NCBI RefSeq assembly: GCF_001592205.1
Contig: NZ_BCWM01000011.1
Location: forward strand, 1-64,000
Length of the DNA: 64,000 nucleotides
DNA from: Brevundimonas vesicularis NBRC 12165
GTDB taxonomy: Bacteria; Pseudomonadota; Alphaproteobacteria; Caulobacterales; Caulobacteraceae
Direction of reading: 5' to 3'
Part shown: piece after piece, positions 27,316 to 38,837 of the stretch
How the letters are laid out: each line of letters opens with the position of its first letter
Numbering within the stretch: the stretch's first letter is position 1
Notes under the pieces: model-generated
What the model saw: only the letters and a program-made list of their open reading frames with translations
Told to the model about the DNA's origin: nothing
Database searches by the model: none
Translations under genes and position numbers: made by a program

Positions 27316-28206
27316 TCAGCCGCGCATCAAACGGCGGCACAGGTCGTCGAGCTGCTCCAGCGAGCCGTAGCCGATCGTCAGTTCGCCCTTTCCGCCCTTG
27401 TCCGACAACTGCACTTTCAGGCCCAGCGCATCGGCCAGATCCTGCTGCAGGGCGGCGACATCGGCCGCCCCTTCCCCGCCGACGGCCGCCGACGCCGACT
27501 TGGTCTTCGTCGGCTTCGGCCCCTCGACCGCACGGCGCGCCAGGGCCTCTGTCTCACGGACGCTGAGACCATCCACGAAGGCGATGTCCGCCAACTGGCC
27601 CGGATCGGGCGTATTGATGAGGGCCCGGGCGTGACCCGCGGACAGCTTGCCTTCGCGCACGTAGAACAGCACCCGCTCGGGCAGTTGCAGCAGGCGCATG
27701 GTGTTGGCCACGTGGCTGCGGCTCTTGCCGACCACGCCAGCCACCGCATCCTGCGTCCGCCCGAAGCGCTCCATCAGAACGCGGTACGCCTCAGCCTCTT
27801 CCAGAGGATTTAAGTCCGCGCGTTGGACATTCTCGACGATCGCGACCTCAAACACCTCGACGTCGTCCATCTCGTGGACAACGATCGGCACCTCGGTCAG
27901 GCGCGCCGCCTGTGACGCGCGCCAGCGGCGCTCGCCGGCGATAATCTGCCAGACGCCGTCCTCGCCCGGTTGGGTCCGCACCAGGATCGGCTGCAACACC
28001 CCCTTGTCGCGGATAGAGGCGGTCAGTTCCTCCAGATCCTCCTGGCGAAAGGTCTTGCGCGGCTGGTCCGGATTGGGCTTCAGGCTTTCGATCGGCACGC
28101 GTTGCACGCCGGCGGGCACAGGCGCGTCAGATGCGACCGGCGCCTCGGCGTCCTGCCCCATCAACGCCGACAGGCCGCGGCCCAGACCTCTTTGTCGTTC
28201 AGCCAA
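27316..28206 (-). CDS. parB: Chromosome partitioning protein ParB
   Basis: A 296-aa ParB that binds parS and loads as a CTP-dependent DNA clamp. The ParA-interacting N-terminus is RGLGRGLSALMG. The CTP-binding domain has PNPDQPRKTF, GERRWRAS and ENVQRADLNPLEEAEAY. A helix-turn-helix DNA-binding domain follows (TQDAVAGVVGKSRSHVANTMRLLQLP), and the C-terminus is the dimerisation domain. The start is a TTG at 28206, the only one that keeps the N-terminal ParA-contact peptide. It follows parA by 24 bp. Confidence 0.97.
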   Translation of the reverse strand: MAERQRGLGRGLSALMGQDAEAPVASDAPVPAGVQRVPIESLKPNPDQPRKTFRQEDLEELTASIRDKGVLQPILVRTQPGEDGVWQIIAGERRWRASQAARLTEVPIVVHEMDDVEVFEVAIVENVQRADLNPLEEAEAYRVLMERFGRTQDAVAGVVGKSRSHVANTMRLLQLPERVLFYVREGKLSAGHARALINTPDPGQLADIAFVDGLSVRETEALARRAVEGPKPTKTKSASAAVGGEGAADVAALQQDLADALGLKVQLSDKGGKGELTIGYGSLEQLDDLCRRLMRG

Positions 28207-28230: not shown

Positions 28231-29049
28231 TCAGGCGGCCAGCTTCAGGCGCTGGCGTTCGCGCTTCACCACTTCCTTGGCCAGCCGTAGATAGGCCTGG
28301 CTGCCGGCGCACTTCAGGTCATAGATCAGCGCCGGCTTGCCGAACGACGGCGCCTCGGCGACGCGGACGTTACGCGGGATCACGCTCTCATAGACCTTAT
28401 CGCCGAAGTGAGCGCGCACGTCGTTGGCCACCTGGCCCGACAGGGCGCTGCGACGATCGAACATTGTCAGGACCAGGCCCTGGATTTCCAGCGATGGGTT
28501 GAGGCTGTGCTTGACCATATCGATGGTACGCATCAGCTGGCTCAGGCCTTCCAGGGCGAAGAACTCGCATTGCAACGGCACCAGCACCGCGTCCGCCGCC
28601 GCCATCGCATTCAGCGTCAACAGGTTCAGCGACGGCGGGCAGTCGATCAGCACATAGTCATACGCGGTAGGGCCGTCGTCGTGCGCGCGAAGAGCATCAC
28701 GCAGCCGATAGGACCGGCGATCCGCTTGGCTCAGTTCGATCTCAACGCCCGACATGTCCGCGTCGGCCGGGACGATCCACAAACCCGGCACAGTCGTCTG
28801 CACCGAGGCATCCGCGATCGAGCGCTGGTCAACGACGACATCATAAATGGTCACCCGCCGTGTTTCACGTGGAACACCCAGACCCGTTGAGGCATTGCCC
28901 TGAGGGTCCATATCCACGATCAGCACGCGCTCCCCGATAGCGGCCAGGGCGGTGCCGAGGTTGATCGCTGTCGTCGTCTTGCCAACCCCGCCCTTCTGGT
29001 TGGACACGGCGAGGACGCGGGCGGGCTTTCTAGCGCGTTGAGCGGGCAC
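28231..29049 (-). CDS. parA: Chromosome partitioning ATPase ParA
   Basis: A 272-aa Walker-type ATPase that moves the ParB-parS complex over the nucleoid. The deviant Walker A motif is NQKGGVGKTTT, Walker A' DMDPQGN and Walker B VLIDCPPSLNLLTLNA. The start is a GTG at 29049, overlapping the last 20 bp of rsmG. The coding sequence itself contains one parS site (28861-28876), within codons for the PRETRRV segment. parA-parB form an operon with rsmG and mnmG upstream. Confidence 0.97.
   Translation of the reverse strand: MPAQRARKPARVLAVSNQKGGVGKTTTAINLGTALAAIGERVLIVDMDPQGNASTGLGVPRETRRVTIYDVVVDQRSIADASVQTTVPGLWIVPADADMSGVEIELSQADRRSYRLRDALRAHDDGPTAYDYVLIDCPPSLNLLTLNAMAAADAVLVPLQCEFFALEGLSQLMRTIDMVKHSLNPSLEIQGLVLTMFDRRSALSGQVANDVRAHFGDKVYESVIPRNVRVAEAPSFGKPALIYDLKCAGSQAYLRLAKEVVKRERQRLKLAA
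28861..28876. promoter_or_regulatory. parS: parS centromere site 1
   Basis: TGTTTCACGTGGAACA; its reverse complement TGTTCCACGTGAAACA is the classical bacterial parS consensus. It lies inside parA. ParB nucleates here and spreads on flanking DNA. Confidence 0.92.
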
Positions 29050-29662: not shown

Positions 29663-31542
29663 CAGGCCGCGACCGACGCCTTTGGCGCGCGCTTCACATA
29701 GGCCAGCAGCGCGGTCAAAGCGCCCGGCGTCATGCCCTCGATCCGACCAGCTTGGCCCAAGGTGCGCGGTTGGACGCGCGCCAGCTTTTCCTTCACCTCG
29801 TTCGATAGACCGCCAACGGCGCCGTAATCGAGATCGGTCGGGAGCATCAGCCCCTCCTCCGCCTTCAGCGCATCCGCATCCTGCGACTGTCGATCCAGGT
29901 AGTTGGCGTAGGCAGCGTCGATTTGAACCTGCTCGCGAACGTCGTCGGTCCAATCGGCGATGATGGGCACTGCTGAAACAAACTGATCCAAAATCACATC
30001 GGGGAAGGCCAGCAGCTCGCGCATCGACCGCCGACGACCGTCAGCATTGACCGAAATGCCAAGCGCACCGGCCTCGTTCGGCGTGAATAGTGTTTCACGT
30101 GAAACAGCGCTAGCCACCGCAAGCGCCGATCGCTTGGATTCAAAGCGAACACGCCGTTGCTCGCCGACGATGCCCAGCTCGATCGCAAGCGGCGTCAGTC
30201 GAAGGTCGGCGTTGTCAGCGCGCAGCGTCAGCCGATACTCCGCCCGGCTGGTGAACATCCGATACGGTTCGGTAACGCCGCGCGTCACCAGATCGTCGAT
30301 CATGACGCCGATATAGGCCTGATCACGCCCCAGGATCACCGGCTCCAAGCCCGCCGCCGAACGCGCGGCGTTTAGCCCTGCCATCAACCCCTGCGCCGCG
30401 GCCTCCTCATAGCCCGTCGTGCCGTTGATCTGTCCGGCGAGATATAGTCCCGGACGCTTCTTGACCTCCAGCGCCGCCGTCAGCTCGCGCGGATCGACAT
30501 AGTCGTACTCGATGGCGTAGCCGTATCGAAACACCTCGACCGCTTCCAACCCCGGAATGGTGCGGAGGAAGGCGAGCTGTGTCGGCTCTGACACCGAGGT
30601 GGAGATGCCGTTTGGATAGACCGTCGGATCGTCTAAGCCCTCCGGCTCCAGGAAGATCTGATGGCTCGTCTTATCGGCGAACCGAACGACCTTGTCTTCG
30701 ATCGACGGACAATACCGCGGGCCACGTCCCGACAGCTTGCCGCCATAGACGGCGCTCTCGCCAAGATTTTCCGCGATGATCCGATGGGTCTCCTCGGTCG
30801 TGTGGGTCACGCCGCAGGCGATCTGGGGCACGTCGATCCGGTCGGTAAGAAAGGAAAAGGCTGACGGCGTATTGTCCGCTTCCTGCATTTCCAGCCGGTC
30901 CCAGGCTATCGTCCTACCGTCCAGGCGTGCGGGCGTGCCTGTCTTCAAACGTCCCATTATAAGGTCGGCGGCATGAAGATCGGCGGCCAGACACGTCGAA
31001 GGCTCCTCGCCATGCCGCCCCGCCGGGATGCGCTCGTCGCCGCGATGGATGATCCCGTTCAGGAAGGTGCCGGTCGTCAGGACGACCGCCCCAGCGCGAA
31101 CCGTCTCTCCCGCGCCGGTCACGACGCCGACCACACGGTCGCCTTCAAGGACAAGCCGCTCGGCCGTCCCGGCCATCAGGGTCAGATTGGGCGTCCCTTG
31201 CAGTTCGGCCTGCATGGCCTCGCGATAGAGGCGTCGGTCGATCTGGCTGCGCGGGCCCCTGACGGCGGCGCCCTTGGATCGATTCAGGAGGCGGAATTGG
31301 ATGCCTGACACATCGGCCAGCCGTCCCATCACGCCGTCCATTGCGTCGATCTCGCGAACGAGATGCCCCTTCCCCAGCCCCCCAATAGCCGGGTTGCACG
31401 ACATCTCGCCAATCGTCTCCAACTTCTGGGTGAGCAAGACGGTGCGGGCACCCGCCCGCGCGGACGCCGCCGCCGCTTCACAGCCGGCGTGGCCGCCGCC
31501 GATGACGACGACGTCGAATACGCGATCTGAGGGAGAAATCAT
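29662..31542 (-). CDS. mnmG: tRNA uridine-5-carboxymethylaminomethyl synthesis enzyme MnmG (GidA)
   Basis: A 626-aa FAD protein that, with MnmE, modifies U34 in the wobble position of several tRNAs. The FAD-binding motif is [38 protein letters not shown] and the [18 protein letters not shown] and [17 protein letters not shown] segments are highly conserved. The ATG at 31542 is chosen over a TTG six codons earlier. The coding sequence contains parS site 2. Partner mnmE lies 102 bp upstream across parS site 3. Confidence 0.97.
30091..30106. promoter_or_regulatory. parS: parS centromere site 2
   Basis: TGTTTCACGTGAAACA, a perfect 16-bp palindrome, located inside the mnmG coding region. Confidence 0.93.
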
Positions 31543-31613: not shown

Positions 31614-31629
31614 TGTTTCACGTGAAACG
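31614..31629. promoter_or_regulatory. parS: parS centromere site 3
   Basis: TGTTTCACGTGAAACG, one outer base off the perfect palindrome, located in the 102-bp gap between mnmE and mnmG. Confidence 0.9.
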
Positions 31630-33225: not shown

Positions 33226-33241
33226 TGTTTCACGTGAAACG
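33226..33241. promoter_or_regulatory. parS: parS centromere site 4
   Basis: TGTTTCACGTGAAACG, one outer base off the perfect palindrome, next to the ribosome binding site of the DUF6489 gene. It is the parS closest to the predicted origin (about 4.3 kb). Confidence 0.9.
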
Positions 33242-35404: not shown

Positions 35405-36462
35405 GCCGCCTGCCTCCCCTTGCGATGCGGACAGGCCTTCCAGTCCGCCTTGCACCCCTGGCCGAACGGCGCGACGCCCACGTGGGACAATGCGCCCACA
35501 GCCGCATCGGCCAAGGCGTCTATGAACAGCGGCTCGATCCCGACCGCCGTCGCCCGCAAATAGGGACTGGCCCCTTTTTCGTGGGCCAGTTCGCCATATT
35601 CGATATCCAGCTCGACCAGGGTCTCGATATGTTCCGAGACAAAGGCGATAGGCGTGACGACGACCCCGACGCCGTCTTTGGCCGCCGTTTCAATGGTTTC
35701 GGGCGTGGACGGGCCCAGCCATTTCATCGGCCCGACCCGGCTTTGGTAGCAGATAGCGTGGTCGATCGGCCCGCGCTGGGCCTCGATGGCGGCGACCACG
35801 GCGGCGACCGTCGTCTCGATCTGCTCCTGATAGGGATCCCCCTTGCCGGTCACCAGCTTCTCGGGGATGCCATGGGCGGAGAACAGCACCCGCACCGGCT
35901 GGCCCACCGCCTCGTCCAGCTTCTCGCCGATCGCCTGGGCCTGGGCCTCAACCCAGCCTGTCGCGGCCGGATAGCAGCAGACGGCCCGGCTGACGCCCGG
36001 GCCGGCATAGGAGACGCTCCAAGCCTTCAGCGAGGATTCCGTCGTCGTGGTCGAAAACTGCGGATAGAGCGGCAGCAGGACGACTTCGTCGGGTCCGAAG
36101 GCGGCGACCTCGGCCGCCGTCTCCTCGGTCAACGGATGCCAATAGCGCATGGCGATGAAGACCTTGACCTCATCGCCGCCAAGCCGCGCGCCAAGCAACG
36201 CCTGCAAAGCCTCGGCCTGACGACGGGTTTCGGGCAGCAGCGGCGATCCCCCGCCCATCAGGGCGTAGTTGGCCTGGGCGCTGGTTTCGCGCCGGCTGGA
36301 GATCAGTTTGGCCAGAGGCGTGCGGAAGATCCCCGGAAGGCCGATGATGGCCGGATCGTTGAACAGGTTGAACAGGAACGGCTTGACCGAAGCCTGATCG
36401 TCCGGCCCGCCCAGATTGAACAGCACCACCGCGATGCGGCGGCCGGGGTTCGCATCGCTCAT
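35401..36462 (-). CDS. hemH: Ferrochelatase
   Basis: A 353-aa enzyme that inserts Fe2+ into protoporphyrin IX. Conserved features are VVLFNLGGPD near the N-terminus, the catalytic His in RVLFSAHGIPEK and Glu in VTPIAFVSEHIETLVELDIEY. Overlaps hemE and hemJ by four bases on each side. The C-terminus has a CKADWKACPHRKG cysteine pair, as in some alphaproteobacterial ferrochelatases. Confidence 0.97.
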   Translation of the reverse strand: MSDANPGRRIAVVLFNLGGPDDQASVKPFLFNLFNDPAIIGLPGIFRTPLAKLISSRRETSAQANYALMGGGSPLLPETRRQAEALQALLGARLGGDEVKVFIAMRYWHPLTEETAAEVAAFGPDEVVLLPLYPQFSTTTTESSLKAWSVSYAGPGVSRAVCCYPAATGWVEAQAQAIGEKLDEAVGQPVRVLFSAHGIPEKLVTGKGDPYQEQIETTVAAVVAAIEAQRGPIDHAICYQSRVGPMKWLGPSTPETIETAAKDGVGVVVTPIAFVSEHIETLVELDIEYGELAHEKGASPYLRATAVGIEPLFIDALADAAVGALSHVGVAPFGQGCKADWKACPHRKGRQAA

Positions 36463-37517
36463 TGGGCGCCGATCCGTCTCAGAACCTGTTCGACATGGTC
36501 GATCGGCACATCCGGCAGGATGCCGTGGCCGAGGTTGAACAGCCAGGGCCCCTGCCCCCAGGCCTCCATCAGCTGATCGACGCGTCGGTCCAGCAGATCG
36601 CCGCCGGCGCGCAGCAACAGCGGGTCGAGCGCCCCTTGGATCGGCTTGATCTGCTGCACCCGTTTGCCGACCTCGAGTGGGCAGGCGGTGTCCAGGGCGA
36701 CGGCATCGACCTCGACCGCCTCGGCATACTGCTCTGCGAGCGCCGCAGAGCCCCGTGGGAAGCCGATGAGGGGTACGGTGACCCCAAGCTCCCGCGTCCG
36801 CTTCACCAGCGCCTGGTGGGGCTTCAGGACCAGTCTTTCGAACAGGTCGTCCGGCAAGCCCTCTGCCCAGCTCTCGAAGATCTTCAGAACCTGGGCGCCG
36901 GCGTCGGCCTGCATCTTCAGATATCGGGCCGTGGCCTCGACCAGAACCTCCAGCGTCTCATCGACGCGCTCGGGATCGGCATAGGCGTAGGTGCGGGCTT
37001 GGGCGCGTTCACCCTTGCCTATGGTGCGCGCCTGGCCGTCCAGCATATAGGTCGCCACTGTCCAGGGCGCGCCGGCGAAGCCGATCAGGGCGCGTTCCGG
37101 CTCCAAGGCCGCGCGCACGATCGACAGGGTCTCACCCACCGCCGACAGATGCTCGCCCGCCGCCGGAGCCAGTTCGGCCATCCGACCCGGGATCGGCATT
37201 TCGCCCAGACGCGGCCCCTCCCCCGTCTCGAACCAGACGTCCTGGCCGAGGGCGCGCGGGATCAGCAGGATGTCGGCGAAAACGATCGCCGCATCGAAGC
37301 CGAACCGGCGCATGGGCTGAAGCGTCGCCTCGGCGGCCATTTCGGGGTTCAGACAGAAGGCGATGAAGTCGGGCGCCTCGGCCCTCAGCTTGCGATATTC
37401 CGGCAGATACCGCCCGGCCTGGCGCATGAACCACACCGGCGGACGCTCCAACGTCTCCCCGCGGAGAGCTCGGAGCACCAAGGGTGTCGGATCGGCATTC
37501 TGGGTCTGATCGGTCAT
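36459..37517 (-). CDS. hemE: Uroporphyrinogen decarboxylase
   Basis: A 352-aa enzyme that converts uroporphyrinogen III to coproporphyrinogen III. The N-terminal signature RPPVWFMRQAGRYLPEYRKLR and the GFAGAPWTVATYML segment are diagnostic. First gene of hemEHJ, transcribed away from the predicted origin. In Caulobacter hemE is the gene bordering the replication origin, and a strong promoter into hemE overlaps origin sites there, so regulation by CtrA is plausible here too. Confidence 0.97.
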   Translation of the reverse strand: MTDQTQNADPTPLVLRALRGETLERPPVWFMRQAGRYLPEYRKLRAEAPDFIAFCLNPEMAAEATLQPMRRFGFDAAIVFADILLIPRALGQDVWFETGEGPRLGEMPIPGRMAELAPAAGEHLSAVGETLSIVRAALEPERALIGFAGAPWTVATYMLDGQARTIGKGERAQARTYAYADPERVDETLEVLVEATARYLKMQADAGAQVLKIFESWAEGLPDDLFERLVLKPHQALVKRTRELGVTVPLIGFPRGSAALAEQYAEAVEVDAVALDTACPLEVGKRVQQIKPIQGALDPLLLRAGGDLLDRRVDQLMEAWGQGPWLFNLGHGILPDVPIDHVEQVLRRIGAQ

Positions 37518-37712
37518 GCCGGAGGATTAAGGTCACAGCCCCCCGCTCTCAATCCCTAATCAGATTAAGAATTAAAAGATTCGAAGTGGCAGGTAGGGCG
37601 GTGGAATGGCGGGGATGACTCGATCGGGGGCGACGGAACAAAAGCGGATATCCACGCCTGGCATATCGTTAACGGGGATGTCGAAACGACCAATCCTGCC
37701 GGTGGACAATCC

Positions 37713-37727
37713 CTAACAAAACCTTAA
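37713..37727 (-). promoter_or_regulatory. CtrA-like binding site a
   Basis: Read on the minus strand: TTAA-N7-TTAG (GGTTTTG spacer). One base from the TTAA-N7-TTAA consensus of the cell-cycle regulator CtrA, which blocks initiation at the Caulobacter origin. Confidence 0.55.
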
Positions 37728-37776
37728 CGGGCAAGGGTTTGCGGGGACTTGCGGCTGTGAACGCGGTTAAACGCCG

Positions 37777-37791
37777 TTAACCTTTCATTAG
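37777..37791 (+). promoter_or_regulatory. CtrA-like binding site b
   Basis: TTAA-CCTTTCA-TTAG, again one base from consensus, starting inside the right arm of the GGTTAA-N6-TTAACC repeat and ending 2 bp before the DnaA-box-like TTTTCCACA. Confidence 0.6.
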
Positions 37792-37793
37792 GA

Positions 37794-37802
37794 TTTTCCA
37801 CA
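37794..37802 (+). promoter_or_regulatory. DnaA-box-like sequence
   Basis: TTTTCCACA differs from TTATCCACA at one position. Its closeness to CtrA-like site b would allow competition between DnaA and CtrA, as described for Caulobacter. Confidence 0.55.
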
Positions 37803-37967
37803 GCGGTGAGAAAGTAGGTTTTCCGCCTTGGGATGATCCGGCGTCGGACGACCAACGCCATCCACCATCATCCCCGCTCGCGGGCGGATCGATCAGCGGC
37901 TAAGAAAAACGGCGCCCCGACGGTCCAACGCCGTCCCCCAACTTTCAACAGGGAGACAGACAGTCTC

Positions 37968-38837
37968 ATGAGCCCTGCGAGACCCTCGGGACCGGCCCGT
38001 CTGGCCACCTATTTCCACGTTCACCTGGTGTCAGACTCCACCGGCGAGACCTTGAATGCCATGGCCAAGGCGGTGACCGCACGCTTCGATGGGGTCATTC
38101 CGATCGAGCACATCTATTCCCTAGTGCGATCGGCAAAGCAGATGGAGCGGGTGCTGCAGGAGGTGGAGTCCGCGCCCGGCGTCGTTCTCCACACCCTGGT
38201 CGACCGCGATCTGCGAGAGCAGCTGGAAGAAGGCTGCCGTCGCCTGGACATGCCCCAGATCGGCGCGCTGGATCCCTTGGTCGGCGCCATGTCGCGCTAT
38301 CTCGGCGCGGCCCTGTCCACCCGCATCGGCGCCCAGCACGCGCTGGACCACGACTATTTCAACCGGATCGCGGCGCTGGACTTCGCCATGGCCTATGATG
38401 ACGGCCAGGGCTCTCTGGATCAGCTGGAGGGCGCCGACGTCGTTCTGTGCGGTGTCAGCCGGACATCCAAGACCCCCACCTGCATCTATCTGGCCCACCG
38501 AGGCATCCGGGCGGCCAACGTGCCCCTGGTGCCGGGTCAGGAGGACGGCGAGCGGCTGACCAAGCTGAAGAACCCCTTGGTGATCGGCCTGACCGTGTCG
38601 CCGGATCGACTGGTTCAGATCCGGCGCAACCGCATCGACAATCTGAACGCCAGCCAATCGTCGAACTACACTGATCAAGACGCCGTGCGCGACGAGACGA
38701 TCAAAGCCCGGCGGGCCTTCGAGCGGCGCGGCTGGCCGACCATCGACGTGACCCGCCGTTCGGTGGAAGAGACGGCGGCGGCGATCACCAATCTTCTGAG
38801 CGAGCATCGCAACCACAAGATCGGGACGACATGGTGA
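37968..38837 (+). CDS. Pyruvate, water dikinase regulatory protein (PpsR/DUF299)
   Basis: A 289-aa bifunctional serine/threonine kinase and phosphorylase of the DUF299 family that switches PEP synthase or PPDK activity. HVHLVSDSTGETLNAMAKAV at the N-terminus and the P-loop GVSRTSKTPTCIYLA near residue 160 are diagnostic. The ATG at 37968 has GGGAG upstream; an in-frame extension to 37833 lies in the origin. First gene of the ppsR-maf-aroE-coaE run; its stop overlaps the maf start (TGATG). Confidence 0.94.
   Translation: MSPARPSGPARLATYFHVHLVSDSTGETLNAMAKAVTARFDGVIPIEHIYSLVRSAKQMERVLQEVESAPGVVLHTLVDRDLREQLEEGCRRLDMPQIGALDPLVGAMSRYLGAALSTRIGAQHALDHDYFNRIAALDFAMAYDDGQGSLDQLEGADVVLCGVSRTSKTPTCIYLAHRGIRAANVPLVPGQEDGERLTKLKNPLVIGLTVSPDRLVQIRRNRIDNLNASQSSNYTDQDAVRDETIKARRAFERRGWPTIDVTRRSVEETAAAITNLLSEHRNHKIGTTW

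Follow-up and report, generated by a model that had tools for sequence, protein, structure and literature searches.

The locus considered here raises the question of whether the 450 bp between hemE and a DUF299 gene in Brevundimonas vesicularis NBRC 12165 are the replication origin of the chromosome, and whether such an origin would be controlled as in Caulobacter crescentus. According to PMC4468827 and PMC4285127, CtrA blocks the origin of the latter (Cori) in swarmer cells, exclusion of DnaA being the simplest way, and the CtrA sites of Cori number five, alongside two G-boxes and a set of weak W-boxes. An earlier note on the 64,000-nucleotide stretch analysed here (the window) had predicted a Caulobacter-type origin in this gap, and that prediction is now supported by the flanking genes, the CtrA-like and DnaA-like sites, an unstable 40-bp stretch, parS, dif and conservation, the skew evidence being mixed. 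In our view it is highly likely that chromosome replication in this Brevundimonas starts in the gap and that this origin works like Cori. The case is built on position, motif content, conservation and chromosome-scale geometry, from which we infer protein binding, unwinding and an on/off switch.

Elements of the intergenic region

The features of the locus are collected in Table 1. Pfam names both flanking genes as the earlier note had done. To the left lie hemH-, rho-, mnmE-, gidA- and gidB-like genes and then parA and parB, and to the right maf-, aroE-, coaE- and dnaQ-like genes together with dapB-, dnaJ- and dnaK-like ones, all identified by reading the ORF translations (rho, parA and parB also by Pfam). 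The strain's own 42-contig draft has a single dnaA match, located on a different contig from the gap.

Table 1. Features of the hemE/DUF299 locus and its parS region (window coordinates)
Feature	Position	Strand	Remarks
Predicted chromosome origin (hemE/DUF299 intergenic region)	37518..37967	.	motif content, conservation, chromosome-scale geometry
hemE, uroporphyrinogen decarboxylase	36459..37517	-	PF01208 (URO-D), E 1.6e-99; left border of gap
DUF299 / Kinase-PPPase gene	37968..38837	+	PF03618, E 9.7e-86; right border; stop TGA at 38835
Candidate DNA unwinding element, AT-rich	37546..37585	.	nearest-neighbour energies; unwinding predicted
GANTC (CcrM-type site)	37578..37582	.	number not above chance
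GANTC (CcrM-type site)	37617..37621	.	number not above chance
CGGGGAT repeat	37610..37616	+	possible weak (W-box-like) DnaA site; putative role
Weaker DnaA-box-like ATATCCACG	37648..37656	+	TCC core conserved in alignment; putative role
CGGGGAT repeat	37673..37679	+	possible weak DnaA site; putative role
Left CtrA-like site TTAAGGTTTTGTTAG	37713..37727	-	TTAA-N7-TTAG, one mismatch to consensus; conserved in relatives
Right CtrA-like site TTAACCTTTCATTAG	37777..37791	+	TTAA-N7-TTAG, one mismatch to consensus; conserved in relatives
DnaA-box-like TTTTCCACA	37794..37802	+	2 bp from right CtrA-like site
CGGGGAT repeat	37870..37876	-	possible weak DnaA site; putative role
GGCGCC, single	37911..37916	.	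position conserved in alignment; not enriched in this window
parB	27316..28206	-	PF02195, PF17762
parA	28231..29049	-	PF13614
parS-like	28862..28875	+	one mismatch
parS GTTTCACGTGAAAC	30092..30105	.	perfect match
parS GTTTCACGTGAAAC	31615..31628	.	perfect match
parS GTTTCACGTGAAAC	33227..33240	.	perfect match

The two TTAA-N7-TTAG sites that had been read from the sequence were found exactly where they had been placed, and together with the DnaA box they span the 90 bp claimed. Their number at one mismatch is indeed lower than the five of Caulobacter, a figure not reached here, and site number varies among species; a two-mismatch search for a third site adds only two forms, both overlapping the right site. 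When TTAA-N7-TTAA is sought with at most one mismatch, these are the only two matches in the whole 64 kb. Two such matches anywhere in 64 kb are no rarity, occurring in 16 of 100 shuffles; two inside one 450-bp gap did not arise in any of 20,000 sequences generated by a Markov model with the composition of the gap. Moreover, the whole 3.36-Mb draft has 17 distinct TTAA-N7-TTAR sites listed (27 rows when the strands are counted separately), and no pair but that in the gap is less than 100 bp apart. As a separate observation, a TTAA-N7-TTAG site in genome G000 (C1:218824-218838) begins 93 bp before a match to SciP (DUF1153).

The DnaA-box-like sequence noticed beside one of the CtrA-like sites is also where it was said to be, at the spacing given in Table 1. 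The DnaA G-box TGATCCACA is absent from the gap, TTTTCCACA being present in its stead, and the W-box TCCCCA has no copy there. Three of the nine copies of CGGGGAT (ATCCCCG) in the 64 kb fall in the gap, 0.06 being expected. By nearest-neighbour energies, no 40-bp window in the 64 kb is less stable than that of the AT-rich stretch described earlier; when the windows are widened to 60 bp, the gap drops to second place. As for the two GANTC sites, their presence was confirmed but not their value as evidence for an origin, since two are observed against 2.2 expected from the gap's own composition (0.86 at the density of the window), and they were therefore set aside. The direct repeat AATCCCTAA occurs at 37551-37559, inside the AT-rich stretch, and at 37708-37716, overlapping the left CtrA-like site; these are its sole two copies in the 64 kb.

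Proposed working and comparison with known origins

In the model proposed, DnaA would bind TTTTCCACA and, more weakly, the TCCAC site and the CGGGGAT repeats, and would then open the AT-rich stretch. Phosphorylated CtrA would bind both TTAA-N7-TTAG sites, keeping the origin shut in non-replicating cells. On the right site it would crowd the adjacent DnaA box, a competition suggested by the layout and by analogy with C. crescentus, for which it is described in PMC4468827. ParB on the parS sites, 4-8 kb away, may then segregate the copied origins.

The locus shares with Cori the hemE/DUF299-type setting, an AT-rich stretch, parS within 10 kb and a CtrA site close to a DnaA box that points the same way, the spacing being 2 bp in the window and 4 bp in L194-L196. 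It differs in having two near-consensus CtrA sites where Cori has five, TTTTCCACA instead of the G-box TGATCCACA, and CGGGGAT repeats rather than the W-box TCCCCA; a further difference is the distance of dnaA from the gap in relatives (139-531 kb in 14). In Hyphomonas neptunium, another stalked alphaproteobacterium, CtrA is likewise found beside the chromosomal origin, but at one site and by ChIP-seq, according to PMC7200025, whereas the two sites here are predicted from sequence.

Conservation among relatives

The loci compared came from the best 80 of 116 contig matches, from DUF299 searches of the genus and the family, each contributing up to 30 loci, and from 60 regions taken directly; of the genomes searched, 118 of the 121 for the genus and 148 of the 149 for the family had a DUF299 match. 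Among 190 loci, 183 have the divergent hemE/DUF299 arrangement, and the seven without a hemE match in the DNA examined (one of them only 568 bp long) were dropped. Removal of duplicates left 158 rows, 123 of the Brevundimonas group, including one of another genus code (L168, G128, code g9), and 35 others. In G192 and G188, the DUF299 match holds one in-frame stop inside the open frame (TGA and TAG).

The comparison with other Brevundimonas origins that the earlier note had called for bore it out, the CtrA-like sites and their spacing being kept in most of the genus. In fact, at least one TTAA-N7-TTAR lies in the gap of 98 of the 123 Brevundimonas-group rows and 32 of the 35 others, and at least two in 57 and 22, respectively. 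The first two sites start 60-65 bp apart in 54 of those 57 Brevundimonas-group rows. The pattern is absent from 25 of the 123, namely the 18 rows of a clade around B. diminuta, described below, and seven others. When the 105 gaps outside this clade were compared with their own, mostly coding, flanks, the most enriched hexamers were CtrA half-sites (CTTAAC, CGTTAA), which had not been specified in advance; TCCACA is present in 95 of these 105. L194-L196 (genus code g21) carry TTAA-N7-TTAA 4 bp before TGATCCACA, a layout comparable to the 2 bp of the window; they probably belong to Caulobacter, because TGATCCACA is the C. crescentus G-box given in PMC4285127.

These data also bear on a second reading, that the origin is here but that the TTAA-N7-TTAG sites bind CtrA too weakly to exert control, the timing coming from DnaA regulation alone. 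Each site misses one consensus base, and only mild effects followed in the laboratory when CtrA binding was removed from Cori of C. crescentus, as PMC4468827 reports. Furthermore, CtrA-like sites seem dispensable for an origin, because the 18 clade rows and seven other Brevundimonas-group rows are without them. Against this, most of the genus retains the two sites at this spacing and many relatives have a full TTAA-N7-TTAA at the same aligned places, so we consider such weak binding unlikely, and an origin under CtrA control is retained as the preferred reading.

Position on the chromosome

In the window, three perfect parS sites stand at a distance of 4-8 kb from the gap; in relatives, all 70 loci with 9 kb of flank have one or more perfect copies beside it. 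A dif-like sequence, CCTAAGATATATTATGYGAA, initially picked up by a looser pattern that matched other places too, recurs as a single copy in each of the 15 genomes searched with up to three mismatches (e.g., G079:C1:1948522; the match in G113 has three). The distance from gap to dif averages 0.475 of the chromosome, with a range of 0.363-0.499 in 16 genomes, six of whose lengths were rounded to two figures; that from dnaA to dif averages 0.387 in 14 genomes. The gap is closer than dnaA to the dif antipode in 13 of 14 genomes, the exception being G068, where dnaA is slightly closer; G028, with dif at 0.363, also departs from the rule. Although in 8 of 16 single-contig genomes base 1 is no more than 700 bp from the start of the dnaA match, dnaA lies 139-531 kb from the gap in the 14 measured and off the dif antipode, and was rejected as an origin marker.

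The GC-skew test suggested at the outset gave a divided answer: the minimum is about 4 kb from the gap in G068 but 58 kb off in G079, and the strain's own genome is a 42-contig draft. In detail, G068, a member of the B. diminuta clade, has its cumulative-skew minimum at 2,560,000 (400 kb on a 10-kb grid), with the gap at about 2,563,800 and dnaA at 2,759,235. In G086, of the same clade, the skew switches sign somewhere between the samples taken at 1.06 and 1.13 Mb, the gap lying at 1.113 Mb and the best-fit position at 1.07 Mb (R2 0.56). G079, the nearest complete relative examined, has its minimum at 410 kb (40 samples, R2 0.32) or 430 kb (400 kb contiguous), 38-58 kb away from its gap, which is located at 372 kb; fits in which the origin was fixed gave an R2 of 0.243 for the gap versus 0.206 for dnaA. 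Within the window, cumulative skew falls to about 38 kb and is flat afterwards. The skew in this lineage is read as too weak to place the origin on its own.

Alternatively, the gap could be taken as merely the divergent, CtrA-regulated promoter of hemE and DUF299, with the true origin elsewhere, e.g., at dnaA, a view that can point to the divergent arrangement itself, to the CtrA-like site before another gene (SciP/DUF1153) in G000 and to the displaced minimum of G079, but that is made very improbable by the adjoining parS cluster, by a dif close to the gap's antipode, by skew, whose minimum coincides with the gap in G068 and whose sign change spans it in G086, and by the poorer fit of dnaA in G079. 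The window thus very probably holds a well-supported, ordinary Caulobacter-type origin with a reduced set of CtrA sites.

A GGCGCC array in the B. diminuta clade

On a FastTree tree of hemE and the DUF299 N-terminus, the presence of at least six GGCGCC in the gap maps as a single change, shared by a clade of 18 rows (local support 99) with B. diminuta ATCC 11568, B. guildfordensis, B. bullata, MYb52, MAGs and further genomes, and by its sister row, L027 (support 82), which has seven GGCGCC and still one TTAA-N7-TTAG. TTAA-N7-TTAR is absent from all 18 clade gaps, and TCCACA is retained in 4 of the 18, versus the 95 of 105 in the other Brevundimonas-group rows. CGGGGA is kept, with a median of 4 both inside and outside the clade. 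The tree also puts L098, a MAG contig with the title Bordetella sp., together with B. diminuta, and this record is probably mislabelled.

Each clade gap holds 6-11 GGCGCC within roughly 190-290 bp, at largely conserved positions (e.g., L101, L167, L214, L215, L090, L092, L228), and GGCGCC is the top enriched hexamer, both in the five loci used initially and in all 18. Against expectations from their own, mostly coding, flanks, 151 copies are observed in the 18 clade gaps versus 21.2 expected, 224 versus 97.6 in the other 105 Brevundimonas-group gaps, and 46 versus 31.2 in the 35 gaps of other genera. The evidence is strongest where GGCGCC is otherwise rare: L101 has nine in the gap and one in the remaining 9.7 kb examined, and L215 nine and none in the remaining 1.3 kb. 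In GGCGCC-rich members such as L090 and L092 the counts are not decisive, because some 450-bp stretches outside the gap also hold seven. At the genome level, at least 7 of 12 close GGCGCC pairs of G005 lie in the gap (11 of the 12 being listed) and 6 of 14 in G024, a control pattern giving 5 and 13 pairs, respectively; what is remarkable is therefore the concentration of pairs in the gap rather than their total. G068 has 584 close pairs genome-wide. GANTC is raised in clade gaps (106 versus 9.2 expected from flanks) and in other gaps as well (259 versus 58.3). Apart from the array, GGCGCC is scarce (0-0.5 per kb) in the flanks of L055, L066, L069, L079, L083, L088, L101 and L110, and not in those of other Brevundimonas, which could result from restriction avoidance or from deamination loss of methylated cytosine.

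Judged by skew, G068 and G086, the two clade genomes examined, retain the origin at its usual place, and parS is present in all eight clade loci with enough flank. A CtrA protein query found ctrA, at 87-89% identity, in 19 of 20 genomes searched, including 14 of 15 from the clade; the sole miss is G005, a clade assembly 66% complete. An expected location of ctrA beside sciP (PF06627) was discarded, as the translations read at the locus were flagellar-type and mnmA-type genes instead. From its motifs, the clade looks like one with a CtrA-free, rewired origin. As a tentative reading, possible rather than probable, its origin would have kept its place and lost CtrA control with ctrA itself intact, the GGCGCC array being a new control element, either as target of the solitary cytosine methyltransferase reported from Caulobacter and predicted for Brevundimonas, a counterpart of GATC and Dam at the E. 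coli oriC, or as operator of an unknown regulator replacing CtrA. A literature search covering titles, the openings of abstracts and selected passages, mostly outside subscription journals, found no description of such an origin array.

Candidate readers of GGCGCC

The E. coli oriC contains clustered GATC methylation sites and is served by Dam and SeqA. Likeness to it is limited to the B. diminuta clade, where a reported methylation target, GGCGCC, is clustered; the putative clade mark would involve cytosine rather than adenine methylation, and the window itself has one GGCGCC.

In Caulobacter, GGCGCC is the reported target of a solitary cytosine methyltransferase, CCNA_03741, for which an orthologue is stated for subvibrioides and no partner restriction enzyme is listed in the available part of PMC7987155, a study in which m5C was beyond detection. 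C. crescentus is described, in PMC12907096, as having two solitary cytosine methyltransferases, CCNA_03741 and ScmA, the latter acting on YGCCGGCR. In Rhizobium leguminosarum, PMC8709438 gives GGCGCC methylation as called 4mC and tied to restriction-modification genes, whose enzymes are about 52% similar to M.CcrNAIV (CCNA_03741).

A PF00145 protein was found in all 30 Brevundimonas and all 11 other family genomes searched, and those compared (from 18 Brevundimonas and 10 of the 11 others) include an EFFAGGG-type family with two branches in Brevundimonas. The C5 methyltransferases compared in 20 regions from 18 Brevundimonas form two groups, 41-51% alike. Identity to the enzyme conserved in genus g21 is about 46-58% for either group, which leaves two candidates for GGCGCC specificity, and a firm link between a methyltransferase and the array was therefore rejected. 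A DNA-binding regulator as the reader of GGCGCC would be an equally open alternative to methylation.

Implications

The origin of B. vesicularis-type Brevundimonas is hereby placed to 450 bp, with defined sites to mutate. Since half of the single-contig genomes are numbered from near dnaA, at a considerable distance from the gap, base 1 of complete Brevundimonas genomes should not be assumed to be the origin. Moreover, the genus represents a natural experiment in the loss of CtrA from an origin: close relatives keep ctrA without its origin sites, so that the role of CtrA at the origin, and its possible replacements, can be tested by comparison. Should the GGCGCC array turn out to be read through methylation, the origin would bear a cytosine-based mark of an unusual sort. 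What merits following up is the comparison, in which a sister clade shows a GGCGCC array at an origin apparently free of CtrA.
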